A stretch of 64,000 nt of DNA from Caldithrix abyssi DSM 13497 (GCF_001886815.1 NZ_CP018099.1:2912501-2976500), one strand, 5' to 3'; positions 7,186-20,695 are shown, counted from the stretch's first letter. Notes: a model not told the origin generated them from the letters alone. A program made the numbers and translations.

Positions 7186-7360
7186 GAGGCTGTCCCAAAA
7201 GCGATATCAAATGTATATTTTTAAAATAATATGAAAAAGTTTACAATAGCCCTCACCCCCTTTCCCCGTCTCCCGATTTCGGGAGAGGGGGAATTAAAGG
7301 GGGTGAGGGGAAGAAAAACTTTATAAAAATACATTTTCTTTGACTTTTGGGACAGCCCCT
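7186..7360. mobile_element. MITE-like palindromic element
   Basis: A non-coding element of about 175 bases bounded by a perfect 14-base inverted repeat, GGCTGTCCCAAAAG at 7188-7201 and its complement at 7344-7357. Similarity continues inward (AATGTATATTTTT versus AATGTATTTTTAT, and AAAGTTT on both sides). GGCTGTCCCAAAAG resembles terminal repeats of several DDE-transposase insertion sequences, so this could be a non-autonomous derivative. No target-site duplication is obvious. It sits just downstream of the polyferredoxin operon and may also act in its 3' end. Confidence 0.65.
7250..7309. repeat. Large nested hairpin inside the MITE-like element
   Basis: A 14-base perfect stem (CCCTCACCCCCTTT at 7250-7263 with its complement at 7296-7309) encloses a second stem-loop made from CTCCCGA and TCGGGAG at 7270-7285. 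RNA from either strand would fold strongly. No U-tract follows on the minus strand, so it is not a standard intrinsic terminator, but it could block 3' exonucleases at the end of the 12.2-7.4 kb transcript. Confidence 0.8.
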
Positions 7361-7377: not shown

Positions 7378-9342
7378 CTACTGTTTTTGGACAAGTTTTC
7401 GTTCGATCGTTTCCGGCTGAATAACTTCGCCTTTTAGAGGAAAGCGGAAGGGATTGTTGACCAGGCCCGTTTTCCCATTGCGGTAGTGGACGGTTAATTG
7501 CGGCTTATTTAAGGCGCTAAAAATACTATCTGCCGGGACTTTATTTTTTACAAAGTAAACAAAAGCATAGGGTTTTTGATCCACAATATCCGTTTTAAAG
7601 CGTACGATGTAATCATTGGTTGAAAGGTGACTTACTAACATCATCAGGCTACGACGGATACCGGCATTCAGCGCCTGCGGCATGTAAATTTTGTAAACGG
7701 CCAGGTCTTGCGGTTTATATTTTTTATATTCGTTAAAAACCATGTTAAAGGGGGTAAACAGCTCTTTTATAAACGCGCTTCTGGTAATATGCTCTATTGT
7801 TTGAGATGTTTTCGCAACTTTAAACTTTAACTTTACCGTGTAAGATTTCCCTCTGCTCACATAGGTGACTTCCGGTTGTTCGATAATATTCTTAATTTCA
7901 TCTATGGTTAAAAGAGAGTCATTAAAGTAGATCGTAGCCTCTACCGGTTCGCCGAAATGGGTGCTGAACCCATAAATCCCTTTATTCTGTTTAAGCAGTT
8001 GCGTAAAGTAGAAAGAATCGTATGTATCGAACAACTTATCCACCCAAAAGACCGCCGCGGCCACGCTGTCGGTTGGCGAGGCAGGCATTCTAAACAGTGT
8101 TTTAGCCGGCGTAAAAATTGCGGCTTTAATCTTTTCGGGATCGATGACCTGCGGATCATAGTAAATTTCTGCCGTATGAGAGCGCACATAGGCTTTTACG
8201 CCCAAAACGCCCTTTACGCGTTGCATTCTCGAAGCAAAGGACATGGCGCTGCCATAACACTTAATATTTTTAAGACCGGATTGCGAAAAGATGGCAGCCG
8301 TTTCCAGTTTTTGTTCCGGCCCCCATTTCATGTTAATGGTGGGCAATTCTATCGTTCTGGCCAAAAATAACCCTAAAACAATTAGCACTACCGTGGCGGT
8401 AGCCGGTAGCCAGGTCATTTTCTTTTTGTTAATGGTTAAGGTGTCGGAAACCGGGCAGGCCTTAATGCAATCGACACATAAATGGCAATCGATATGCTCC
8501 ACTGTTTCAACGCCCATAACATCCAAGCCCATGGGGCAGGCCTTGTTGCACAGGTTGCAGTCCACGCAGGCATCCCCTTTGCGTTTGATTTTAAAAACCG
8601 GAAAAAGCCAGCCTTCTAGCCTGGTAACCTCCAGCAACATGGCAATTAAAATGATGATCCCCGCAGGCCACAACCAGCTAATTTGCAGGCCCAATTTGAG
8701 TAATATCAGATAAATCACCATAACGGCAAAAAAGACCACCGCGTTGGAAAAAATATTGGAGATGGCGCTTAACGGGCACAGATACTTACACCAGAACTGT
8801 CGAATAAAAACAGCGCCTAAAATGGTGATAATTAATGCGGGCAGGGCAAAGTACAACACCACATCACTCCCGAAGCCGGTAAAGACGGCAAAAAAGGGAT
8901 CGTATTCTTTACAGAACAGTTCGCTGGAACCAACGGTAAAATAAAAGGTCAAAAATAACAAGATATATTTAAGGCTACGTAAGGCTTTATCTGCAACCCC
9001 GCTGATCGTGTAGCGTACTTTAAATTTTTCACCGATTTTGCCCAGCCATTCGGTAAAGGTGCCGATGGGACAAATATAACTGCAAAACAGCTTGCTGAAA
9101 ATCAAAACGCCGATCAGCAGCAAAACGCCCATAAAAATCTGGTGTTCTGTCATTGAACAGGCCAGAGAATTATTGACTAAATAGCTGCTCAGGGCTTGCA
9201 TACCGCCAAACGGACAATACGCCTCAAAATCCGGGACATAGTTTGGATCGATCCACCACCGTAGCACCATATAGAACAGCAGGGCCATTATTCCCCACTG
9301 AAAAGTCAATCGCAAATAATTTGTTCTGTTTTTTTGTGCCAT
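7378..9342 (-). CDS. Membrane polyferredoxin (NapH/NosR/CcoG type) with HMA-like domain
   Basis: Integral-membrane iron-sulfur protein. Residues 15-255 contain about six membrane segments and CP motifs typical of NapH/NosR/CcoG proteins: YCPFGG at 42-47, CSYICP at 87-92 and CKYLCP at 185-190. Two [4Fe-4S] ferredoxin clusters follow: Cys259/262/265/269 and Cys286/289/292/296. After another membrane segment (about 311-328), residues 355-412 look like an HMA-type ferredoxin fold with one Cys (Cys362) in place of CxxC. The final 240 residues may hold further divergent copies of that fold. It probably passes electrons across or along the inner membrane to a redox step in the periplasm. It is the last gene of the ABC operon, 23 bases after the DUF4857-like gene; AAGGAG precedes the ATG. 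Confidence 0.82.
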   Translation of the reverse strand: MAQKNRTNYLRLTFQWGIMALLFYMVLRWWIDPNYVPDFEAYCPFGGMQALSSYLVNNSLACSMTEHQIFMGVLLLIGVLIFSKLFCSYICPIGTFTEWLGKIGEKFKVRYTISGVADKALRSLKYILLFLTFYFTVGSSELFCKEYDPFFAVFTGFGSDVVLYFALPALIITILGAVFIRQFWCKYLCPLSAISNIFSNAVVFFAVMVIYLILLKLGLQISWLWPAGIIILIAMLLEVTRLEGWLFPVFKIKRKGDACVDCNLCNKACPMGLDVMGVETVEHIDCHLCVDCIKACPVSDTLTINKKKMTWLPATATVVLIVLGLFLARTIELPTINMKWGPEQKLETAAIFSQSGLKNIKCYGSAMSFASRMQRVKGVLGVKAYVRSHTAEIYYDPQVIDPEKIKAAIFTPAKTLFRMPASPTDSVAAAVFWVDKLFDTYDSFYFTQLLKQNKGIYGFSTHFGEPVEATIYFNDSLLTIDEIKNIIEQPEVTYVSRGKSYTVKLKFKVAKTSQTIEHITRSAFIKELFTPFNMVFNEYKKYKPQDLAVYKIYMPQALNAGIRRSLMMLVSHLSTNDYIVRFKTDIVDQKPYAFVYFVKNKVPADSIFSALNKPQLTVHYRNGKTGLVNNPFRFPLKGEVIQPETIERKLVQKQ

Positions 9343-9365
9343 TTTTACTCCTTAAACATTTTCCG

Positions 9366-10601
9366 TTAATCGACCGGCGGTTCAAAAAGTGAAACGCCAA
9401 TAAAACCATAAATTCCTGTCACTAAAATAATGACCAGATCAAACCAGCTATTTTTAATCTTCTGCCTCCGTTTTTTGAAAATATACATAGCCAAAAACAA
9501 TAACAAGACATTAAAAATAATGGCTTTGGGCGAAAAATCATCGAAATAAAAGCTGGCAAACTCCGTAGTACTTTTCCGAATTTGCAGCGTAAAAGGAAAA
9601 AAATATTTCGTGATGATTCCCGCTGTTGACTGGTAAAAGCCAGGCCAGCTTTCCTGGTATGTAGCGATTAGCTGGTACTGACGATTGGTTGTGAACGACA
9701 ATAATTGCGTGTCTTTTTTAATGTTAAAAATGCGGTACATAAGATTGCCCAGAATGTACAAATTATCTTCATCCGGATTATAATTTGAGATTGGAATTTT
9801 CTGAAAACGATATTGGTCATACATTAAAAAGTAAACTTGATTTTTCGTATCAATCACAACACCATAAAATTCTCTTAAATCTCGTTCGTTAATAAAAATA
9901 ACGCGCACATCGATACTATCAGGCTTATGGGTATTGCGGCAAAACGGTTCGCCGTCAATCATTTTTAGATGAAAAAGCTGGCCGTTTTTATCCACAATAA
10001 AATAGCCTTCATCAAACGGTTTACGTGTGGTAATATTACCGAACACTTTCTGGGCCGGAAAAACAAATCCCTCATCTTTTAAAGCTCTGGTAAATTTTTC
10101 TGATTTTTTTGTGTTAAGTTCATTGGTAGCGGCGTTAATAAATTCGATCCCCTGTGGCGTAATTCTAAAAAAATCATCCGGTATGCTAAGAGACAAACGG
10201 GGCGGATTGGCTTCCATAAGGGGATATAAAGGGATAACGGGCACATTGATATGCTTGGGACGGATGCGAATAAACAGATTATTCAATCGAATTTCTTTTA
10301 GATCAACTTTGTGTCCTTTAATCGAGTCCGGCATCTGCCCTTTGGCGGCCAGAATTCGATAATTAAAAAAAGGTAATAAAGGATCTGCCTCATCGCGGGT
10401 AAACCTTTTTCCGTCTTTCGTTTTATAGTAGAAACCATCGTCATAATATGCAATTAAATAATTCTCAAGAATTGGGCTGTAATAAGCCATGGGCGATGGC
10501 GTCTTTTTTTCAAAGCTTAACCAGTAATACTCTGGAATATAAACGGCCGAAACCAGAATAACAATCAAAATGATAAATAATCTGCTAATTTTTATAATCA
10601 T
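9366..10601 (-). CDS. DUF4857-like membrane protein
   Basis: Protein of unknown function with an N-terminal membrane anchor (about residues 5-24), a long beta-rich domain of about 320 residues that should lie outside the cytoplasm, and two C-terminal membrane segments (about 355-375 and 385-403). Size, layout and context (ABC ATPase, permease, polyferredoxin) match what I recall of Bacteroidetes DUF4857 proteins; this assignment is from memory. The soluble part contains repeated strand-turn units (GYFIVDKNGQLFHLKM, YFLMYDQYRF) suggestive of a beta-propeller or beta-sheet sensor. Its start codon overlaps the end of the permease gene by four bases, implying translational coupling. Confidence 0.62.
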   Translation of the reverse strand: MIIKISRLFIILIVILVSAVYIPEYYWLSFEKKTPSPMAYYSPILENYLIAYYDDGFYYKTKDGKRFTRDEADPLLPFFNYRILAAKGQMPDSIKGHKVDLKEIRLNNLFIRIRPKHINVPVIPLYPLMEANPPRLSLSIPDDFFRITPQGIEFINAATNELNTKKSEKFTRALKDEGFVFPAQKVFGNITTRKPFDEGYFIVDKNGQLFHLKMIDGEPFCRNTHKPDSIDVRVIFINERDLREFYGVVIDTKNQVYFLMYDQYRFQKIPISNYNPDEDNLYILGNLMYRIFNIKKDTQLLSFTTNRQYQLIATYQESWPGFYQSTAGIITKYFFPFTLQIRKSTTEFASFYFDDFSPKAIIFNVLLLFLAMYIFKKRRQKIKNSWFDLVIILVTGIYGFIGVSLFEPPVD

Positions 10602-11269
10602 TTTTCCACTCCTCTGCGAAAACGCTGACCGGTATATAAAATGATAACACTAAAAAACAGTGAAGTAATGATAAACCAGGGTAACGAATACTTATACATA
10701 CTGTATGCCGAAGTATAGAATAAGAAAAACAAATAGCCAAAGGAAAATATAATCAAAACGATTCGCTTTAGCCAGATCGGTTCCACAAATATGGCCGCAG
10801 CCGCCCAATAGATTGTGAAGCCGGCTAATACCCATGGGGCGATCGTTATCCAGACATTGAATAAGAACTCCCAGGGAAAAATTCTGGCGGTGACAATGGA
10901 GAACAACCCCATTCCCAATAAATTTACAGCAAAAAATGCCAGCGTCCCAAAACCAACCATAAATAATAAGATGGAATTTTCTTTTAACGGCAGGTGTAAT
11001 GTTAATTTTAAGCGATTGGCGTTTATTTCTGGCATATATTGCGCAAAGGCGATGACCAGTCCAATCAATAATGGGAAAAATTTTAAATCGTCAAAATAAA
11101 AATCTCCCAGAATGATGACCTGATACCAGAATTTATTGGCGTCAAGAAATCGAATATTATAAGAAATTTCAAGAGCTATTTTTATTACCAAAACGATAAA
11201 AAGTCCGGCTAAAATAAACACGGCTGAGCGAACTTTTAGCCATTCCTTATAGAATAGTGCTTTTACCAT
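10598..11269 (-). CDS. ABC-2 type transporter permease
   Basis: Small integral-membrane subunit, 223 residues, with about six hydrophobic segments (starting near residues 17, 60, 100, 137, 167 and 191) and no soluble domain. This is the usual form of an ABC-2 permease pairing with a separate ATPase to make a homodimeric or heteromeric exporter. The ATPase gene lies eight bases upstream and the DUF4857-like gene overlaps its end, so the three products are likely one complex in the inner membrane. TAGGAGAAGAG gives a good ribosome site. The substrate is unknown; the neighbouring redox protein suggests a cofactor, metal or maturation role rather than drug export. Confidence 0.85.
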   Translation of the reverse strand: MVKALFYKEWLKVRSAVFILAGLFIVLVIKIALEISYNIRFLDANKFWYQVIILGDFYFDDLKFFPLLIGLVIAFAQYMPEINANRLKLTLHLPLKENSILLFMVGFGTLAFFAVNLLGMGLFSIVTARIFPWEFLFNVWITIAPWVLAGFTIYWAAAAIFVEPIWLKRIVLIIFSFGYLFFLFYTSAYSMYKYSLPWFIITSLFFSVIILYTGQRFRRGVEK

Positions 11270-11277
11270 CTCTTCTC

Positions 11278-12168
11278 CTAATATTTTCCAGTTAAACCAA
11301 TAAAGGCATCTTCCAGAGTCATGGGCACCTGTTTAATGTTTTTAAATGGCACGTTTAATTTTTTCAGATGCTCCTCTACTTTGTCCTGTGTTTTAAAGGA
11401 ATAAACTATGCCTCTGGTTTTAAAAATCTCAAAATTCGCAATCACATCATCTTTATGAAGGCTAACATGGTGACCTTCTGGAAGGTCGAAGGTAAATTGT
11501 TTAAAATTTGCTTTAAACTCCTTAACCGTGCTGGTAAGCAATACGCCTTTGTAATCCAGAACAACGATATCTTCCACCAGCCCTTCCAGATCCTGAATAA
11601 TATGCGATGTAATGAAAATTGTTTTCCCTCGCCCGATGGCATATTCTTTTAAATAGTCCAGGAACAACCGGCGGTAACCGGCATCCAATCCCATGGAATA
11701 GTCATCTAATATCATTAAATCCGGATCCTGTGCCAGGATCAATCCTAAAGCGACCTGAGAACGCTGTCCACAAGACATGGTAGAAAGCTTTTGTTGCGGT
11801 TCAACCTCTAACTTCTCCATTAAATCGTAATAAGCCTCTTTTTTCCACTTAGGATAAAAGGCGGAGTAAAATTTTTCAATTTGGGTGATGGTCATAAAAT
11901 TATATTGAATATGACCTTCCATTAAAAAGCCCATTCTGGCTTTTGTTTGCGGACTTAAATGCTGCGAATCTTCACCAAAAATGTAGCAATGTCCGGAATG
12001 GGGGCGCAAATAGCCGTGTAAGATATTAATCGTTGTAGTCTTGCCCGTTCCGTTTTTCCCTAACAGACCAAAAATACTCCCTTTCTTGATGACAAAATTC
12101 AGATTTTCATAAATCAACCGCTTTCCATAATAATGCGTTAGGTTAACGCATTCTACAACATTTTCCAT
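11278..12168 (-). CDS. ABC transporter ATP-binding protein
   Basis: Cytoplasmic ATPase of an ABC-2 transporter, about 296 residues. Walker A is GKNGTGKT at about 37-44, the signature is SCGQRSQ at about 132, and Walker B with D-loop reads LMILDDYSMGLD at about 151-162. The usual catalytic Glu after Walker B is Asp, and the common PTSG is YSMG, so turnover may be slow or altered. A C-terminal extension of about 90 residues resembles that of BcrA/NatA-like ATPases. The start is set at the ATG at 12168 with AGAGG seven bases upstream; a longer TTG frame to 12183 would contain that site. It is the first gene of a four-gene operon with permease, DUF4857-like protein and polyferredoxin. Confidence 0.88.
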   Translation of the reverse strand: MENVVECVNLTHYYGKRLIYENLNFVIKKGSIFGLLGKNGTGKTTTINILHGYLRPHSGHCYIFGEDSQHLSPQTKARMGFLMEGHIQYNFMTITQIEKFYSAFYPKWKKEAYYDLMEKLEVEPQQKLSTMSCGQRSQVALGLILAQDPDLMILDDYSMGLDAGYRRLFLDYLKEYAIGRGKTIFITSHIIQDLEGLVEDIVVLDYKGVLLTSTVKEFKANFKQFTFDLPEGHHVSLHKDDVIANFEIFKTRGIVYSFKTQDKVEEHLKKLNVPFKNIKQVPMTLEDAFIGLTGKY

Positions 12169-12307: not shown

Positions 12308-12335
12308 AAGCGCCGTTATTGAAATAACGGCGCTT
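12308..12335 (-). terminator. Intrinsic terminator after the BNR/LTD protein gene
   Basis: A perfect 12-base stem, AAGCGCCGTTAT with ATAACGGCGCTT, and a four-base loop. On the minus strand it is followed by TTCCTTAATTTCTTT. It lies 13 bases after the stop of the gene at 12349-14970 and separates it from the ABC operon. Confidence 0.88.
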
Positions 12336-12348
12336 AAGGGGCGATCGT

Positions 12349-14970
12349 CTATTTAACAAGCAACATTTTGCGAATCGCTTTAAAATTACCGCTTTTCAGT
12401 TCATAAAAATAAACGCCGCTGGCAAACTTGCCTGCATTAATTTTAACCTTGTATGCGCCCGGATTCAGCTTTTTATTGATAACGGTTGCAACTTTCTGTC
12501 CCGCAACATTGTAAATGGTCAGGGTCGTCTGATCGGCTTTTTTCAAGGAAAATTCGATTGTCGTCAGCGGGTTAAATGGATTGGGATAATTTTGTTTTAA
12601 TTCGTAATCGGTGATGGTTGCCGTTGGCGAATGGTCAATGCTGACAATAACGCCATTAGCATTGGTTTCGCCAGGTGTGGCCGTGCTAAAGAAAACCCAT
12701 TCCGAGCCGCCATCGTCTCTGCGTCCGTAAGAAATATCCGTTGTTTGTTCGCCAAAGGTCAACGAATCGATGAAGCGATAGCTGCCTTCAAAGTATTCAC
12801 TAAGCCCGATTTGTTCTCCGGAAGCGCTCAATTTAATGTTCACATGCAAAACGCCTTGTTCGGGCTGTTTATCGGCCCATAAAATCAGAAATCCGTTGGC
12901 CGGAATAGTTGTAGCAGCAGGCAGGGTGTCTGGTATCTGATAGGCTGTCGGCTCGCCAAGATCATCTGTAATGTACATGCCGCCGATGTCCACTGGAAAA
13001 TCATTGGCATTGTAAATTTCGATCCAGTCATCGTATTCACCGTATTCATCGGCAAAAGCGGAATCATTAGAAGCCATAAATTCATTGATAAACAAGTTTT
13101 GCGTGGCCACTTGCGGTTCAAAATCTTTTTTCAAAATTACGCCATTTGCGCCTACTACCCACAATTTTCCCTGAGCATATTCCACGCGTTCCAGATTCTG
13201 GGTGGTCACGCTATCGTCTTTTTGCCAGGTAAGACCGGCATCGTTGGAATAATAAATTTTGCCCTTTTCGCCAACCGCGTAAACCAGGGTATCGTTTACA
13301 AAGGCCACGCCAAAGAAATCATCGCCATCCGGTTCTACAAATACTTCCTGCAAGGTATCCCAATTTGCAACCGTTGTGTGAAAAATATAGCCTTTGGTGC
13401 CAACAACCACGCCGTGGTCGCCTCTGAACTCAATTTCTCTTAAGTTCATTGAACCGTAATCATATTTCAGGTAAAAAGAATCCAGCGTTGCGGTTGAGAC
13501 CAGCAACTTTCCGCTGTAACAGCCAGCCAGTATTTGCTTGCTGGCAACCGGCCAGATGTCATAGATGGTACTTGTTTCGGAATTACCGACCAGCGTCCAG
13601 GTTTGCCCGCCATCTTCCGATTTCATGATGTAACCTTTACTGCCCGCTGCAAAAGCCAGATTTTCATCCACAAAACGAACAACGTAAATACTTTTGCCTT
13701 CATCATACATTGGATTAGGAACTTCCTGCCAGGTCAACCCGCCGTCCGTGCTGCGGTAGAGAATTCCTTTATAGCCGCCGGCAAGTGCAAGGTTTTCATT
13801 GGCAAAATCGGCAGTGTACAGCGTACTTCTTGCGCCAACCAGCAGGTTATCCGGATAGGTCCAGTTATATCCTCCGTCTGTGCTGATGGTGGCATCGCCT
13901 TTAAAACAAACGCCGAGAATAGTATTAGCAGGCGAAATGGCCAGTCCTTTAAAATCTACATTGGGCCATCCCAACAATGGCGTGTAAGTGACTCCGCCAT
14001 CCGTTGTTTTGAACCACTGTCCGTCTCTGGCAAAAACATAGCCTGTGTTTGCATCCAGGAAATAGACAAATATAACTGAATGAGCTGCCGGGATATCGAT
14101 GTCGTTCCAGGAATTCCCCCCATCCGTCGTCATTGTCACATGCCCATCCGATCCGCCGGCAACAACCGTATTTTCATTTAAAAGTTGAACTGAATAAAAC
14201 TGGACATAATTGGTAGACCAGTTGGCGATTTGTTGATAGGTTTTTCCACCATCCTGAGAAAGGAAAACTGTAAAATGGTAGCCGACAATGGCAATGGTCG
14301 AATCGCCATAAGCGTCTACATCGTACAGGCGTTTACTAATGCCTCCCGGAAAAATAAGCTGCACAAAATTCCAGGTTTGCCCGCCGTCATGGGTGTACCA
14401 GGTAGCGCCTTTATTTGCGCCGGTCGCCACCACGCCAACGTTCTCGTTACAAAACGCAATGCCGCCATCCAATTTTTGAACGGTTCCGCTTACCTCAAAC
14501 GTATAATTACTTTTCGTCCATGTTACGCCGCCATCGGTCGTTTTTAATACGCCGTCATCACCGGCCACATAAACCGTATTTTCATTCACCACGGCAATAT
14601 TGTTTAAATCGAATGTGAACTGGGCGGTATCGCCAACCTGCGTCCAGGTGTAGCCGCCATCTTCCGTTTTGTAAATACAACCGCCGCTCGATGCGCAGGC
14701 ATATCCTACCAGATTGTTGGCAAAACCGACGTCTGACCAGCTGGGAGCTCCATCATATTCCGGATAGCGTACAATATCTCCGCTTACTCCGCCATCCGTG
14801 GTCATCATTACCGCCCCATCATCCCCGACGAACAGGCCGGTATCGGCATTAAAAAACACGCCGCTGTTGGGATAATATTCCATCTCCCCTTCTTTAACCA
14901 CCTCCCAGGATTGACCGAACAAAAAACTTGCCATCCCAAGAATTAAAATAACTTGTAAATAATACCGCAT
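12349..14970 (-). CDS. Secreted BNR/YCF48-like propeller protein with lamin-tail and sorting domains
   Basis: Exported surface or extracellular protein. It has an N-terminal signal peptide (about 1-20, ending LFGQ). Residues 21-620 hold about eleven BNR/HCF136-like repeats, each with a variant of TxDGGxTW, which should form one or two beta-propellers. Residues 622-770 form a lamin-tail domain (LFINEFMASND, DDWIEIYN). The C-terminal 80 residues are a FlgD/Ig-like sorting domain beginning YPNPFNP at 795 and ending GVYFYELKSG...MLLVK, of the kind recognised by type IX secretion in the FCB group. AGGAGGT lies eight bases before the ATG. It follows the barrel gene by 47 bases and may be read from the TonB operon. 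The ligand or substrate is unknown. Confidence 0.88.
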   Translation of the reverse strand: MRYYLQVILILGMASFLFGQSWEVVKEGEMEYYPNSGVFFNADTGLFVGDDGAVMMTTDGGVSGDIVRYPEYDGAPSWSDVGFANNLVGYACASSGGCIYKTEDGGYTWTQVGDTAQFTFDLNNIAVVNENTVYVAGDDGVLKTTDGGVTWTKSNYTFEVSGTVQKLDGGIAFCNENVGVVATGANKGATWYTHDGGQTWNFVQLIFPGGISKRLYDVDAYGDSTIAIVGYHFTVFLSQDGGKTYQQIANWSTNYVQFYSVQLLNENTVVAGGSDGHVTMTTDGGNSWNDIDIPAAHSVIFVYFLDANTGYVFARDGQWFKTTDGGVTYTPLLGWPNVDFKGLAISPANTILGVCFKGDATISTDGGYNWTYPDNLLVGARSTLYTADFANENLALAGGYKGILYRSTDGGLTWQEVPNPMYDEGKSIYVVRFVDENLAFAAGSKGYIMKSEDGGQTWTLVGNSETSTIYDIWPVASKQILAGCYSGKLLVSTATLDSFYLKYDYGSMNLREIEFRGDHGVVVGTKGYIFHTTVANWDTLQEVFVEPDGDDFFGVAFVNDTLVYAVGEKGKIYYSNDAGLTWQKDDSVTTQNLERVEYAQGKLWVVGANGVILKKDFEPQVATQNLFINEFMASNDSAFADEYGEYDDWIEIYNANDFPVDIGGMYITDDLGEPTAYQIPDTLPAATTIPANGFLILWADKQPEQGVLHVNIKLSASGEQIGLSEYFEGSYRFIDSLTFGEQTTDISYGRRDDGGSEWVFFSTATPGETNANGVIVSIDHSPTATITDYELKQNYPNPFNPLTTIEFSLKKADQTTLTIYNVAGQKVATVINKKLNPGAYKVKINAGKFASGVYFYELKSGNFKAIRKMLLVK

Positions 14971-15017
14971 CCCTAAGACCTCCTTTTTTATGAAACAAAT
15001 ACGTCTAACTTAAAATT

Positions 15018-16478
15018 TTATAAAAATTTTCTGAGTTGTATTTGTACATTAATCTGGTTTTGTGAACGATGATTGGACACGCCCTGCTTTTGACCAAAAT
15101 CCGCATTTAACAGCCAGATTGTTTTCCCCTGATAAAAGGCAACTCCCAGAGCGCCGCCTTTTGCCCGGTAATCGCCATAATAATGCCATATTTCAGGTTC
15201 GTTATAAACACGGTACCACATTCCTGTTTGAATATACCATCTTGGATATGGAGAATAGATGCCCCCTATTTTCAAATCAAAAGCGGAAATGGGCTCATTG
15301 CGATAGATTCGGGCCAGATAATCACGCTTATCGGGCAAAATACGTTGATAATCACTTTCAATCGCAACGGTTAAAGGATGCAGAGAACCCATTTTTCTGG
15401 AGAATCCTATCGTAAGATGATGAAAGCGCTGGTACGAACGATAAATAGCCATCCTTTTGACCGGCTCTTCTGCCCAATCTTCCAGATAGCGAAAGCGATA
15501 CCGTAATGATAAACTATTTTTCATAGAAGCAGACAAAAAATAACGCCATAAGGTAGAAAAATAATAATCTTGCCCCTGGTAATATCCATCGTAACGGCGC
15601 ACAAGGGGGCTATCGTACACCTCGTGCCAGACATACTTATAGCCGACGTTCATTACGCCTTTTAAGCGTGTAAAATCAAACATTATTTGTGGTTGAACGT
15701 CCAGGCCTTTCGTTCGGGCATTCCGATCATCGGTGCTGGTGATAGAAGTAAAAAGGAATTCTCCGCGATAACGAAAAATAATGGGGCTGGTACCGTCTGG
15801 CTGCCTCGCGATCTTAATAATATCCAGTACATCAAAGGGTTTTAAAGAAAGGCCAATAACGATAGAGCCTGAAAGGCGATAGGCCAGGCTTAAGTCGGTA
15901 GTGATTTTGCGCCGAATGATTTCCGGCATGGAATAGACTTTTTTTAAACCTCTGTAAATTTTGTAATTCAGTCCAACGCCCCACCATAAGTTTTTTAACA
16001 GCCGGTGGCTAAAAGTGGCCTCAACCTGCGGCCCGATATAGGAAAAATCTCCTTGCATCGAATCACAGGGCACAAAAGGATCGGGCGCATAAGGTTCAAT
16101 TTCAATGGCGCGGTTTACGTCGCTTAAATAGTCCATATTATATTGCACGGAACCATAAAACGCCTGAGTTGGCGATACATGTTTTTGTCCCGTGAACCGG
16201 ACATCGTTCTGATGAACGCCATACGCATCCCACCAGCGACGTAGTTCGCCCCATGAATTCTGACTATTAAAACTTATGGTCATCCAGTTCAAAGAATCGC
16301 TGGCCTCTAACCAGGCGGAATTCTGGCTAAAATGATAGAGATTGATCTCATTAATATTAGCCGGAATGGCAATTTCGATGGCGCCCACTCGCCACTGGTG
16401 GATATTCCCGGCAAAGCTTTGCCCCGCCATGATTAAAAAGCAGATTAAAACAAAAAAGCAACATACTCTTTTCATCAT
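15018..16478 (-). CDS. Outer-membrane beta-barrel protein (DUF6850-like)
   Basis: Predicted outer-membrane barrel. A signal peptide (about 1-23, ending SFAG) is followed by alternating amphipathic strands rich in Tyr, Trp and Arg up to the C-terminal LRKFL, typical of barrels of 14 or more strands. Its position directly behind a DUF4876-like lipoprotein and a TonB receptor matches a gene order I recall from Bacteroidetes, where the third member is the DUF6850 barrel family; that name is from memory and context. It starts one base after the stop of the upstream gene, so translation is coupled. Either ATG (16478 or 16475) could be used, behind GGGATATT. It probably works with the receptor as an accessory pore or assembly partner. 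Confidence 0.68.
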   Translation of the reverse strand: MMKRVCCFFVLICFLIMAGQSFAGNIHQWRVGAIEIAIPANINEINLYHFSQNSAWLEASDSLNWMTISFNSQNSWGELRRWWDAYGVHQNDVRFTGQKHVSPTQAFYGSVQYNMDYLSDVNRAIEIEPYAPDPFVPCDSMQGDFSYIGPQVEATFSHRLLKNLWWGVGLNYKIYRGLKKVYSMPEIIRRKITTDLSLAYRLSGSIVIGLSLKPFDVLDIIKIARQPDGTSPIIFRYRGEFLFTSITSTDDRNARTKGLDVQPQIMFDFTRLKGVMNVGYKYVWHEVYDSPLVRRYDGYYQGQDYYFSTLWRYFLSASMKNSLSLRYRFRYLEDWAEEPVKRMAIYRSYQRFHHLTIGFSRKMGSLHPLTVAIESDYQRILPDKRDYLARIYRNEPISAFDLKIGGIYSPYPRWYIQTGMWYRVYNEPEIWHYYGDYRAKGGALGVAFYQGKTIWLLNADFGQKQGVSNHRSQNQINVQIQLRKFL

Positions 16479-16479
16479 A

Positions 16480-17619
16480 TTAATATCCCGGTGTAGGATG
16501 ATCTAAGATAATAAAATCCAGACTACTGTTATTGGTATCGAAACCTGGTTGACGCCTCTGGACGGATTTACCGCTGTATTTACTCATTCCCACTCCGGCA
16601 AATCCGGCGTCAATGCGAACGGTTAATTGCTTCAGCGAATTCGGATTGGAACTATATTCCACTCCGTCTAAGATGGTATGAATCGGAACGTGGTAGTATT
16701 GGTACCCTCTATCCGAAACCTCTCCGGCATAAAAATCAGTACCGTCGGCCAACAGCACAAAATTATGCACAAGATTGATCATAAAATCCAGCGATCTTTC
16801 GGGGAGAACATTCACCACATTCGGCGCAGGATTATCGATCTCGGCGCCATAAGGATTATAAAATTCCCAGTCGGCGTCAGATAAATCCAGCGCGGTGTCA
16901 ATATATTGCGAATGGTCTATAGCGTCCTGAGCTACAACCACATATTGATGGGGCGCCACCGGATACTCCCGGCCCACCTTGGGTTCCCCCGGAAATTGAA
17001 AGATGTATGTAACCTGCACATAGTCAACGGAATCCATATTGGGCTTGTGTCTTTGCAATCCGCGGCATAATATTAAACCATCCAGATACACGGTGGTATC
17101 ACTGTTATTGTAAAGCTCGATAAACTGGTCATAAAAGTAAAAGGCCTTGTTCTTTGGACCGCAGTAGTAGATTTCATTGATCACCAGACTGGATTCCAGA
17201 GCCAGATTGGCTTTCAGCGTATCTTCAAACGTTAAATCCATCATTTCAATTAACTTACTACCGCGTAGGGTTAAGGTATCAACCTGGTCGCTATTTTCAA
17301 TCGATACCTCTACCTCTTTCTCAACGGTTAGTGTGTAGCGCCCCAATAATAAATCTTTGAACTCCACCACGCCCTGACTATCGGAATACGCTACGTATTT
17401 TTTGCGAACGCCGGGGCTTTCATAATAGGTATTTGATTCCAGAACCGCCCTGGCATTGCTTAGCGGGGCGTACCCCAATTCAGGGTCTGTCTCGATTAAG
17501 CCGCTTTGATCAACCAGAATTGTGCGCAAAACAAGACTGCCGTCTTGCTGGGTGGGTGGACTTTTTTCACAGGCAACAATCAAAAGGCCTAACGCCAGCA
17601 GAAAAATCTTTTTTGTCAT
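16480..17619 (-). CDS. DUF4876-like lipoprotein with lamin-tail-like fold
   Basis: Probable outer-membrane lipoprotein; the signal ends LLIVAC with Cys17 as the lipid site. Residues 25-130 look like a carboxypeptidase-regulatory/Ig-like sandwich (SNARAVLES, GVVEFKDLLLGRYTLTVE). Residues 145-379 begin LVINEIYYCGP and continue DQFIELYNNSD and VYLDGLIL, the hallmark of DUF4876, which resembles a lamin-tail domain. Family members sit beside TonB receptors and are thought to be surface-exposed partners; no activity is established. The gene is 23 bases after the receptor and one base before the barrel gene. The lamin-tail-like signature also appears in the secreted protein at 12349-14970. Confidence 0.82.
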   Translation of the reverse strand: MTKKIFLLALGLLIVACEKSPPTQQDGSLVLRTILVDQSGLIETDPELGYAPLSNARAVLESNTYYESPGVRKKYVAYSDSQGVVEFKDLLLGRYTLTVEKEVEVSIENSDQVDTLTLRGSKLIEMMDLTFEDTLKANLALESSLVINEIYYCGPKNKAFYFYDQFIELYNNSDTTVYLDGLILCRGLQRHKPNMDSVDYVQVTYIFQFPGEPKVGREYPVAPHQYVVVAQDAIDHSQYIDTALDLSDADWEFYNPYGAEIDNPAPNVVNVLPERSLDFMINLVHNFVLLADGTDFYAGEVSDRGYQYYHVPIHTILDGVEYSSNPNSLKQLTVRIDAGFAGVGMSKYSGKSVQRRQPGFDTNNSSLDFIILDHPTPGY

Positions 17620-17642
17620 GATGTTTTACCTTATTTTAAAAT

Positions 17643-20429
17643 TTATTGACCTGTCTTAAACAAATCATCCAGCTTTGCGCTAAAAGCTACACCCCAGAAC
17701 ATCTCAGGATTTCGGGCCGAGTAGCTACCATAGCGCGTTTTATAGTAAGCCATGTCATTAAAAATATTTTCCACAAAAAGAGAAATTTCTGCGCCTTTAA
17801 AGAGCGATTTACTCACAATCACACTAAACAACCATTTGTCGTTAGGCTTGCTGTCGTCAACGCTAGTACTAAGCTCGTCATAAGAACGATCCAGCCCCAT
17901 CAAGGTGGATGTTTGCGGGTCGATCGGGATCAGCTGTCCGTCTTTGTAATAACCGATGGCATGCGTGGTAACATTACCAAGCAGTAAATAGCGATCCCAC
18001 AATACTTGTTGAGCCCTGAACGTTAACCAGATGCCGAGACTTCTTGCAATGTAGTCGATTTTATAATTGATGATGGTTTTTTGCCTCCAACTTGTGGTCG
18101 GCTTATAATAGGGAACGATTTGCATATCTTCTGGCGCCACCCAGCCGGATGAAAGCGTATCGCCGGCTGAATAATATCTGGAGGCAGATGAAAAATAAGC
18201 TACGCCGTCTCTTTTGCCTGATCGGCTAAACACATAGGAAGCGCTAATAAAAAAGCGCATATTAAGCTTTGGCAAGCGATGCGTTCTTAATAAAAATTCA
18301 AATCCGCTATTGTTTACCCAACCTACATTGCGTGCAATTTTATAACCAGAAGAGGCGATCAATACTTTTTCCATTACGGTCTTCTGGCTCTCATCAGGCC
18401 ACTGTGGCCATTCATATCGATAATAAGTCAAAGGTATGCCCAGATACTGGGGAATATTATTGGTTTTTTGCAAAAAACCATTAAAACTTAAGGCAAAATC
18501 ACCGAATCGCTGGTCGAGACCAACTTCATATTTGGTGCTTTGATAGCCTTTTAAATGAGAGTTCGTCCGATCGTAAACATAGGTGCTAATCAAAGGGACG
18601 GTAATCGTCGTATCTCTGCCATCGGCCAGCGTTTGATGTATGATTCCAATATCGTTCACATCTAAATAAAACTTTTCTGGATACAGCATAGAAAGCGCAG
18701 GAGTTTTGGACGCTTTGCTAAAGGTTAAACGAAATTGCGTATCTTTAAAAAGTTTTAGCTTTAGACCTAATCGGGGATTTAGGAAAGTTCCTTGCCGCGC
18801 TTTAAAGATATCCTCATTTTTTAAAGGATTAATTGGAAAAAAACCGTCCGGATTGTAGCTATCGATTCTGAGTCCTATGTTAAACGTTGTGGGGACAATT
18901 AAGCGGGCTGTTATTCGATCTTCGAGAAACAGAGATAACTGTGAGATTCCCGGAATATCGCTAAAAGAACGCGGACGAATATTCCCGCCGCCATTTGGAG
19001 GGCGCAACAAATCAAACTGCTTACCCGGTCCGTTATTCCACTCCTTCTGGTATTCGCCGCCGGCTAAAATGCGGTGTAAAAATTTTCCCGTAAAAAATCG
19101 GTGCGTGATTTTGACTTTAAATCCTAAAGACCATTCATCGCCTATGGTACGCACATCCGAAAAATAAACAGGATCGGCAAAAATACCTTCAATGGTGCCG
19201 GGTTCCATTAAGGTGGTTGCATATCCTAAATCACGCGTTTCTAATTTGTGTCGCCAGCTGTTTCGACGTTTGTAGTCTAAAAAGTTGCGCATGTAAAAGG
19301 TGGTATTTTTACTATGCTTAAAATTTATCCGTTGAGAATACGTAATATGAAAGTCGCGATTGTAGGCTCTTGTTTTTTCGGGGTCCGATTCGTCATTGTC
19401 TTCCTCGATTTTGCGGGAAAAACGCAGCCCCTGCGTCATTTTGAGCTTTTTTTGCAAAAAACAATTGCTGGCCTTTAGCGAGGCGCCTATCCGATGGAAT
19501 TCGTCGCCTTTAATACGAATATCGCGCTCGCTGTAACCATAATTTAAATTGTAAACAAAATTGGTGTTCCAGCGCTTAAAGCTGCCCATTAAATTGGCTT
19601 CTTTGGTGTCCGGATTATTTTTTACCTTGATGCGCGTGGGCACGTTTTCCGTGCGCGTTGTAGCGATAATTACGCCGGAAGTATTGTCTCCGTACTCAAC
19701 CGATGTGGCGCCGGATTGTACTTCTACGCGTTGTAAATTATCGGCCACAATTTCACGCAGATCATACTGACTTTCCGCCGATGCCTGTACCTTTGTTCCA
19801 TAATTAACGCCCACTCCTGTCTGTAAATCCACATTGTTCGAAAGCGGCACGTCGTCTAAAATAATTTTCGTTCCAAAAGCAGAACCGGCATCCCCAAAAT
19901 TACGTAAATTAATTTTTTGTTTGCTTTGCAACCCAAGGTTGGTCGCCTTTTCATTGCCCGGTATCATTTCTAACACATCGGCCAGGCTGGTGGCCTGCAT
20001 GTGTTCAATTTCTCCGCTGCTGATACGATGAATGGTTTCCGGTTCCTGCGGCAATAAATCTCTTTGCGCCGTTACCTGAATGCCGCCTATCTCCAGGAAC
20101 AAAAACTCATTCGCATTCCCGGGATACATGGTTACATTTAAAGTGGTGACCTTACCGGCTTTTACTTTTACTTCTGGAATGACCAACGAGTAAAAACCTT
20201 TTTTGATAAAAATTAAATAATAATTACCAGGCGGCACATCATCTAAAATAAATTCGCCGTTTTCATCCGATTTAGTGGACCTGTTCTTACTTTCAATGCG
20301 AACGATAACGTTGGATAATCTTTCATCGCTATCGGTTTTGACAATGACGCCTGTAATTTGACCGCTTTGGTTTTGAGCAAAAAGAGAAAGGGCAAATACA
20401 AAAACGAAAAATAGCAGTAATGTGCGCAT
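17643..20429 (-). CDS. TonB-dependent outer-membrane receptor
   Basis: Large outer-membrane receptor of about 928 residues with a signal peptide (ending LFAQ). A carboxypeptidase-regulatory-like domain (GQITGVIV, NVIVRIES, GEFILDDVPPGNYYL) covers about 22-105. The plug follows (LADVLEMIPG, INLRNFG, IILDDVPL, LQRVEVQSGATSVEYG). A barrel of many strands runs to the end. This is the SusC-like/CirA-like type used for TonB-powered uptake. The ligand is not evident. The start is put at the ATG at 20429; an in-frame GTG lies four codons upstream. It is the first gene of an operon with the DUF4876-like lipoprotein and the barrel protein; the 254 AT-rich bases upstream should hold the promoter. Confidence 0.93.
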   Translation of the reverse strand: MRTLLLFFVFVFALSLFAQNQSGQITGVIVKTDSDERLSNVIVRIESKNRSTKSDENGEFILDDVPPGNYYLIFIKKGFYSLVIPEVKVKAGKVTTLNVTMYPGNANEFLFLEIGGIQVTAQRDLLPQEPETIHRISSGEIEHMQATSLADVLEMIPGNEKATNLGLQSKQKINLRNFGDAGSAFGTKIILDDVPLSNNVDLQTGVGVNYGTKVQASAESQYDLREIVADNLQRVEVQSGATSVEYGDNTSGVIIATTRTENVPTRIKVKNNPDTKEANLMGSFKRWNTNFVYNLNYGYSERDIRIKGDEFHRIGASLKASNCFLQKKLKMTQGLRFSRKIEEDNDESDPEKTRAYNRDFHITYSQRINFKHSKNTTFYMRNFLDYKRRNSWRHKLETRDLGYATTLMEPGTIEGIFADPVYFSDVRTIGDEWSLGFKVKITHRFFTGKFLHRILAGGEYQKEWNNGPGKQFDLLRPPNGGGNIRPRSFSDIPGISQLSLFLEDRITARLIVPTTFNIGLRIDSYNPDGFFPINPLKNEDIFKARQGTFLNPRLGLKLKLFKDTQFRLTFSKASKTPALSMLYPEKFYLDVNDIGIIHQTLADGRDTTITVPLISTYVYDRTNSHLKGYQSTKYEVGLDQRFGDFALSFNGFLQKTNNIPQYLGIPLTYYRYEWPQWPDESQKTVMEKVLIASSGYKIARNVGWVNNSGFEFLLRTHRLPKLNMRFFISASYVFSRSGKRDGVAYFSSASRYYSAGDTLSSGWVAPEDMQIVPYYKPTTSWRQKTIINYKIDYIARSLGIWLTFRAQQVLWDRYLLLGNVTTHAIGYYKDGQLIPIDPQTSTLMGLDRSYDELSTSVDDSKPNDKWLFSVIVSKSLFKGAEISLFVENIFNDMAYYKTRYGSYSARNPEMFWGVAFSAKLDDLFKTGQ

Positions 20430-20695
20430 TATTATTCTCACAACATTATGAATTTTTTTTCATTTTTAACTTAATAATAATTTTTTCACTTTTCAAGTAG
20501 TAAGTTAAGGTTTATTACTAACTCTTTTATTTTTTTTACTCTCACCGCCCAAAAAATCATCTTTCATAAAAGCGCATTTTCCATCTTTTTAGAACCATTG
20601 AGTTCTTGTATTTATTTGTTTTTATAAGTGTTAAGCCACTCAATCACTGTCAAAATTAAAGCAAAATTCGCGGCCAAATTGCGTGAACGGAACTC

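Follow-up and report, generated by a model that had tools for sequence, protein, structure and literature searches.

What is the function of four tightly packed genes that set an ATP-driven transporter beside a membrane electron carrier in Caldithrix abyssi DSM 13497? The genes lie on the minus strand at positions 7378-12168 of a 64,000-nucleotide stretch (the window, GCF_001886815.1 NZ_CP018099.1:2912501-2976500; all coordinates are counted from its first letter) of a genome consisting of a single 4.98-Mb contig. They encode an ATP-binding cassette (ABC) ATPase, an ABC-2 type permease, a DUF4857 protein and a polyferredoxin with tandem heavy-metal-associated (HMA)-like domains. The four open reading frames and their order, described in a first-pass annotation of the sequence, were reproduced exactly, as were the spacings of 8 bases between the ATPase and permease genes and 23 bases between the DUF4857 and polyferredoxin genes and the 4-base overlap of the permease and DUF4857 genes. 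The locus is real, conserved and uncharacterised: one conserved set combines an ABC-2 machine and a membrane electron carrier with a domain of metal-binding type, and no characterised system of such composition was found, in agreement with that annotation. The data presented below have led us to propose, with a probability only slightly above one half, that the four genes make up the inner-membrane half of a locus for TonB-linked, reductive acquisition of a metal, with iron or an iron chelate as the most likely cargo.

The four genes do form a conserved set, but not a self-contained one, since it extends upstream to a TonB receptor beyond the segment originally delimited. The set lies directly downstream, on the same strand, of a group of genes at 12349-20441 that encode a TonB-dependent receptor with a CarboxypepD_reg domain (17643-20441, minus strand; TonB_dep_Rec E 1e-19, Plug E 5e-13), a DUF4876 protein with a lamin-tail domain (16480-17619, minus strand; PF16215 E 1.8e-20), a DUF6850 protein (15018-16478, minus strand; PF21012 E 7.8e-12) and a BNR/YCF48-like repeat protein with a type IX secretion system (T9SS) sorting tail (12349-14970, minus strand; PSII_BNR E 7e-31, Por_Secre_tail E 7e-12). 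A terminator-like hairpin (12308-12335, minus strand; 12-bp stem, -18 kcal/mol, z -6.0, U-rich tail) separates the TonB-to-BNR genes from the ABC-to-polyferredoxin genes, so that two transcripts are likely here.

This arrangement is widespread. In a survey of 80 loci, supplemented by further Bacteroidia loci, the ATPase-permease-DUF4857 core recurred mostly with TonB, DUF4876, DUF6850 and BNR genes. The 80 loci span Calditrichota, to which the closest relatives of the C. abyssi genome belong, Ignavibacteriota, Neomarinimicrobiota (Fidelibacterota), Bacteroidota and single members of Desulfobacterota and Verrucomicrobiota; the gene order thus recurs across several phyla and is not due to chance. 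Among the 45 well-flanked (long) loci, which have 6.5 kb or more to either side, a TonB receptor of the same family was present near the core in 38, DUF4876 in 37, DUF6850 in 36 and a BNR protein in 20. Other genes that recur nearby encode M16 and M28 peptidases, a C25-like protein, and a sigma factor paired either with FecR or with a periplasmic protein of heavy-metal-resistance-like type. The first-pass annotation had proposed maturation of a periplasmic redox enzyme; because the genes that recur are instead those for a TonB receptor, DUF4876 and DUF6850, for peptidases, and for regulators of the sigma/FecR or sigma/metal-sensor-like kind, the neighbourhood points to uptake. The sigma/FecR regulators were considered as a clue to the cargo and found uninformative, as such pairs accompany many TonB systems.

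Several loci depart from the common layout. In Ignavibacteria, M28 aminopeptidase and M16 peptidase genes lie between DUF6850/BNR and the polyferredoxin (L135, 9083-13700; L133, 2713-7300; also L042, L051 and L092), and the cargo there might be a metal bound to a protein or peptide. In two Bacteroidales loci (L056, 4439-6462; L138, 7188-9290) the genes immediately upstream of the polyferredoxin encode a small lipoprotein, an extracytoplasmic function (ECF)-like sigma factor, a heavy-metal-resistance-like protein and a small protein, a group that resembles a metal-sensing sigma/anti-sigma set; the heavy-metal-resistance-like protein of this type has conserved cysteines at C84, C133, C155xxC158 and C163. 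In Desulfoluna spongiiphila (L096, 7976-11200) the core stands without a recognisable TonB, polyferredoxin or PepSY gene nearby.

The electron carrier itself is a 654-residue polyferredoxin (7378-9342, minus strand) identified by Fer4_5 (E 1.4e-10) and Fer4 matches, a structural model and an alignment. Its two-[4Fe-4S] ferredoxin region (residues 252-300; 8443-8589, minus strand), supported by Fer4 matches and predicted to be cytoplasmic, contains eight cysteines (C259, C262, C265, C269, C286, C289, C292 and C296) that are invariant in 27 polyferredoxin sequences. An AlphaFold2 model built from these 27 sequences (mean predicted local distance difference test score, pLDDT, 82) shows membrane helices, the two-cluster ferredoxin region and three beta-alpha-beta-beta-alpha-beta units. 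Only one HMA-like domain with a single cysteine had been described previously; that cysteine, C362, is indeed invariant in the 27 sequences, but the domains are three in tandem. Domain 1 (residues 350-416; 8095-8295, minus strand) matches HMA at E 0.035, under the cut-off, and adopts the HMA fold, superposing on an ATP7B HMA domain at 1.6 Å over 60 columns with a template modelling (TM) score of 0.71 by target. It does not have the HMA CxxC metal site: in its GLKNIKC motif the first Cys is replaced by Asn or Ser and only the second, C362, is kept. Domains 2 (residues 426-496; 7855-8067, minus strand) and 3 (residues 547-619; 7486-7704, minus strand) were recognised in the model and contain no Cys; H572 in domain 3 is invariant. 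Profile-profile comparison supports the relatedness of the three units, with hhalign E values, each from a single pairwise comparison, of 6.5e-8 for domain 1 against 2 and 2.5e-11 for domain 2 against 3. From loop charges we infer that the ferredoxin region lies inside and the HMA-like region outside, a topology to be read with caution because a hydropathy scan found only some of the helices of the model.

Orthology with NosR or CcoG, which the first-pass annotation had named as a challenge to its proposal, and with NapH was tested and rejected, with scores far under the cut-offs: the polyferredoxin scored 36.9 bits against the NosR equivalog (cut-off 1000) and had no FMN_bind match, 27.4 bits against the CcoG/RdxA NCBIfam equivalog (cut-off 316.7), and 38.4 bits against NapH in NCBIfam (cut-off 213). 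No literature was found on a polyferredoxin with a heavy-metal-associated domain. At one locus (L132, 9909-11846) the polyferredoxin-HMA gene stands alone, the rest of the locus being absent for about 8-10 kb to its left and right. Directly downstream of the C. abyssi gene lies an element of about 175 bases resembling a miniature inverted-repeat transposable element (7186-7359, terminal repeats GGCTGTCCCAAAAG); it occurs at about 40 places in the genome, 83-99% identical, with a near-copy of one end at 1791-1804.

The polyferredoxin and the DUF4857 protein occur together well beyond C. abyssi. The polyferredoxin was found in 12 of 14 Calditrichota genomes with DUF4857 as opposed to 1 of 26 without it (Fisher p=2e-7) and, independently, in 9 of 10 as opposed to 3 of 187 genomes (p=2e-12) of a second class, comprising 197 genomes around an Ignavibacteriaceae member; these two p-values ignore the relatedness of genomes. 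Two Calditrichota genomes contained DUF4857 alone, one the polyferredoxin alone (a fragment) and 25 neither; in the second class the corresponding numbers were one, three and 184. In that class the two genes share a contig and are separated by about 2-11 kb. Its sole DUF4857-only genome (G476, locus L134) has, immediately following DUF4857, genes for an HxCxH lipoprotein and a PepSY-TM protein, a pair that also adjoins the core in Bacteroidaceae and Marinilabiliaceae and that usually takes the polyferredoxin's place where the latter is missing. Polyferredoxin and PepSY are mutually exclusive in the 45 long loci; both are present only in L048, which has a short flank. Furthermore, the polyferredoxin is encoded elsewhere in the genome in 11 of 13 genomes whose locus lacks an adjacent partner, compared with none of five with PepSY and/or lipoprotein (p=0.0025). 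Across bacteria, then, the locus uses one or the other of two membrane electron carriers that are unrelated in kind. At least two partner switches are needed on the DUF4857 tree, indicating that replacement was not one frozen event, yet is not frequent. The PepSY-TM proteins have invariant H12, H35 and H126 (18/18) and the lipoproteins keep H78-x-C80-x-H82 in 17-18 of 18. The common plan is an electron conduit together with a periplasmic part that binds metal, which the polyferredoxin unites in one protein and the PepSY type divides between two genes; at the Caldithrix locus there is no PepSY_TM reductase, the polyferredoxin standing in its place.

The transporter genes also show family-wide features. 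The ABC ATPase (296 aa; 11278-12168, minus strand; ABC_tran E 4e-21, 76.5 bits) has the signature MSCGQ, conserved with C133 in 77 of 80 sequences, and its Walker B motif ends in LDDYSMGLD, with Asp at the position of the catalytic Glu that typically, if not by strict definition, follows Walker B in ABC-2 transporters. This replacement, already pointed out in the first-pass annotation, extends to the whole family (D156, 80/80) and is a trait of the subfamily, not decay. Among NCBIfam models the ATPase resembles PmtA/GldA-type exporters. The permease (223 aa; 10598-11269, minus strand) has six hydrophobic segments by hydropathy and an N-terminal KEWLK, in which K8, E9, W10 and K12 are invariant. 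The C. abyssi permease itself had no Pfam match, and a permease profile matched no PDB sequence; ABC2_membrane_4 was matched by 4 of 18 family members (best E 8e-8). An ABC ATPase domain and, through these family members, a cognate ABC-2 membrane subunit place the pair among the ABC-2 transporters.

The third gene, previously called DUF4857-like, encodes a genuine DUF4857 protein (411 aa; 9366-10601, minus strand; PF16149 E 5.5e-105, 350.9 bits, membership being set at more than 25 bits). Its AlphaFold2 model (pLDDT 94) has an N-terminal helix, a beta-rich domain with propeller-like pieces and C-terminal helices, from which we predict an N-terminal anchor, a large beta-rich domain in the periplasm and a C-terminal helix hairpin. 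No PDB structure matched the whole fold; the matches listed were partial and propeller-like, with TM scores (by query) of at most 0.28. Invariant or near-invariant residues include K194, D197, Y200, D204, H211, K213 and Y264, and no Cys or Met. Members from Bacteroidaceae are shorter (about 342-362 aa), and one locus (L087, 4414-8505) shows an unusual duplication, a single ATPase-permease pair being flanked by two DUF4857 genes. The literature found on DUF4857 consists of expression data.

Expression data from the literature tie relatives of the locus to iron starvation. In Bacteroides thetaiotaomicron, BT3625-BT3633, a locus of the PepSY type by annotation and gene order, responds to dipyridyl with 37- to 128-fold induction, and its induction in a colitis model is 14- to 19-fold (PMC10434189). 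In Porphyromonas gingivalis, published expression data show PG1019-22 (DUF4876, TonB receptor) up 21- to 215-fold, and a DUF4876 gene ranks among those that respond most strongly to hemin availability (log2 change -5.4; PMC10470040). PepSY_TM proteins include periplasmic ferrisiderophore reductases (PMC13038864; PMC8238504); one protein described as such is XusC of B. thetaiotaomicron, for which the later iron importer is unknown (PMC13142918).

Together, these observations suggest the following model. A metal complex would cross the outer membrane through the TonB receptor, aided by DUF4876 and DUF6850. The polyferredoxin would take electrons from the cytoplasm or the quinone pool and pass them through its Fe-S clusters to a metal on the tandem HMA-like domains, held there by the single C362 with H572 as candidate second ligand. 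Reduction in the periplasm would release the metal. In Bacteroidaceae, Marinilabiliaceae and the one such genome sampled in the Ignavibacteria-centred class, the HxCxH lipoprotein and the tri-His PepSY-TM protein would do the polyferredoxin's job. The ABC-2 ATPase and permease, with the membrane-anchored DUF4857 protein, would then use ATP either to accept the metal released at the reductase or to act on the used chelator by stripping or recycling it.

A number of points weigh against this proposal. ABC-2 permeases are usually exporters. The iron-induction data were obtained on relatives of the PepSY type and with dipyridyl, which chelates other metals too, and the BT locus tags were matched to the family by order and annotation, not by sequence. 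No Fur-box-like site was found within the 64-kb window. Neither partner is present in two Calditrichota genomes with DUF4857 (G003 and G035) or at loci L105, L107 and L096, and three genomes with the polyferredoxin (G446, G449 and G529) gave no DUF4857. The identity of the metal is in doubt because dipyridyl is not fully specific and the metal-site residues would suit Cu or Zn as well; the His-rich lipoprotein tails and the Cys-based domain could just as well point to Cu, Zn or Ni.

The first alternative keeps the architecture and changes the metal: uptake or delivery of copper (or Zn/Ni). The polyferredoxin would reduce Cu(II) to Cu(I) at the HMA-like domains by chemistry like that of the cupric reductase CcoG, and the ABC-2/DUF4857 machine would work like NosFY/NosD. 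HMA folds are classically Cu(I)/heavy-metal folds, and domain 1 fits ATP7B and MerP structures; HxCxH and His-rich stretches occur in the lipoprotein, and the heavy-metal-resistance-like periplasmic protein adjoins a sigma factor in several Bacteroidales loci. That copper can be served by either kind of carrier is seen from CcoG and from CrpH, a PepSY protein linked to copper (PMC13038864). However, CxxC is down to one Cys in domain 1 and gone from domains 2 and 3, relatives are induced by iron chelation, NosZ is unassociated, and the conserved DUF4857 residues are Asp, Lys, Tyr and His, not Met or Cys. We regard copper as unlikely.

The maturation system of the first-pass annotation, in which metal or thiol would be exported to one periplasmic redox enzyme with power from the polyferredoxin, draws on the exporter habit of ABC-2 permeases and on the established Nos cluster, whose composition is likewise a polyferredoxin with an ABC-2 transporter (NosR and NosFY). 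That annotation had looked to a co-occurring periplasmic metalloenzyme, but none recurs beside the examined loci, and NosZ and NrfA, the two candidates tested, were rejected as partners for want of association across 14 genomes with DUF4857 and 26 without: NosZ is present in 4/14 and 15/26, and true NrfA in 0/14 and 6/26, respectively. The C. abyssi genome has no nos_propeller match and no NrfA, TonB/DUF4876/DUF6850 genes recur instead, and the polyferredoxin is without an FMN-binding domain. We consider maturation very unlikely. We give equally little credence to surface-protein or peptide trafficking, in which the ABC-2/DUF4857 machine would export or process a peptide handled by the outer-membrane/T9SS genes and peptidases: M16, M28 and C25-like peptidases and T9SS-tailed BNR proteins in many loci, and the PmtA/GldA-type likeness of the ATPase, would fit, but most loci have no peptidases, and a near-obligate, interchangeable electron-carrier partner and iron-starvation control would be left unexplained. 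A defence system was dismissed, as PADLOC returned ATPase-domain matches only for the ABC ATPase and none for the other three proteins.

Reductive metal acquisition, the reading we prefer, is best judged against known systems. The XusABC xenosiderophore system (B. thetaiotaomicron BT_2063-2065) and other PepSY_TM siderophore-reductase loci (FoxB, FpvG, FsrB) resemble it in combining a TonB receptor, an outer-membrane accessory and an inner-membrane electron-transfer protein. The adjacent TonB receptor of Xus/Fpv-type loci is present here (17643-20441), induction by iron starvation is published for PepSY-type relatives, and part of the family has a PepSY-TM protein with invariant His. Unlike XusABC-type loci, this one adds the ABC-2 ATPase/permease and DUF4857, has DUF4876/DUF6850 instead of DUF4374, and replaces the PepSY protein with a polyferredoxin bearing three HMA-like domains. 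NosR-NosDFY, which supplies electrons to nitrous oxide reductase and assembles its Cu site, is similar in its polyferredoxin, ABC-2 ATPase/permease and periplasmic beta-rich partner, but here there is no flavin mononucleotide (FMN) domain, no NosZ in the genome and TonB genes instead; the DUF4857 protein, unlike NosD, is membrane-anchored in its predicted form, and no solved NosD was among the structural matches listed. Like the cupric reductase CcoG/RdxA and NapH, the polyferredoxin is an Fe-S protein of the membrane that has FCxxxCP and ferredoxin motifs, to which it adds the tandem HMA-like domains, predicted to be periplasmic. Archaeal CopZ (Archaeoglobus) likewise joins an Fe-S redox centre to an HMA domain, and reduces and holds Cu; unlike the polyferredoxin it is soluble and cytoplasmic, with a [2Fe-2S] centre and an intact CxxC. 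By published annotation, BT3625-BT3633 has DUF4857, permease, ABC ATPase, DUF4876 and TonB receptor in the same order, but is the PepSY version without the polyferredoxin and is known only as iron- and colitis-induced.

A bolder proposition is that a new class of periplasm-facing metal reductase, a membrane polyferredoxin with tandem single-Cys HMA-like domains, passes reduced iron to a new ATP-driven ABC-2 and DUF4857 machine, and so fills in the unknown step of import across the inner membrane in reductive iron uptake of the Bacteroidota type; stated in full, we consider this doubtful. The reading that we prefer would extend the periplasmic metal reductases, known to date as PepSY_TM and similar heme proteins, by a polyferredoxin, and would make the ABC-2/DUF4857 machine a candidate for the inner-membrane step that is missing once a siderophore has been reduced. 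That two unrelated electron carriers replace one another in nature offers a clean experimental handle. The proposal gives a testable function to a locus spread over much of the Fibrobacterota-Chlorobiota-Bacteroidota (FCB) group, including a relative in a model gut commensal that is strongly induced in iron starvation and colitis and has hitherto been read as a fimbrillin locus.

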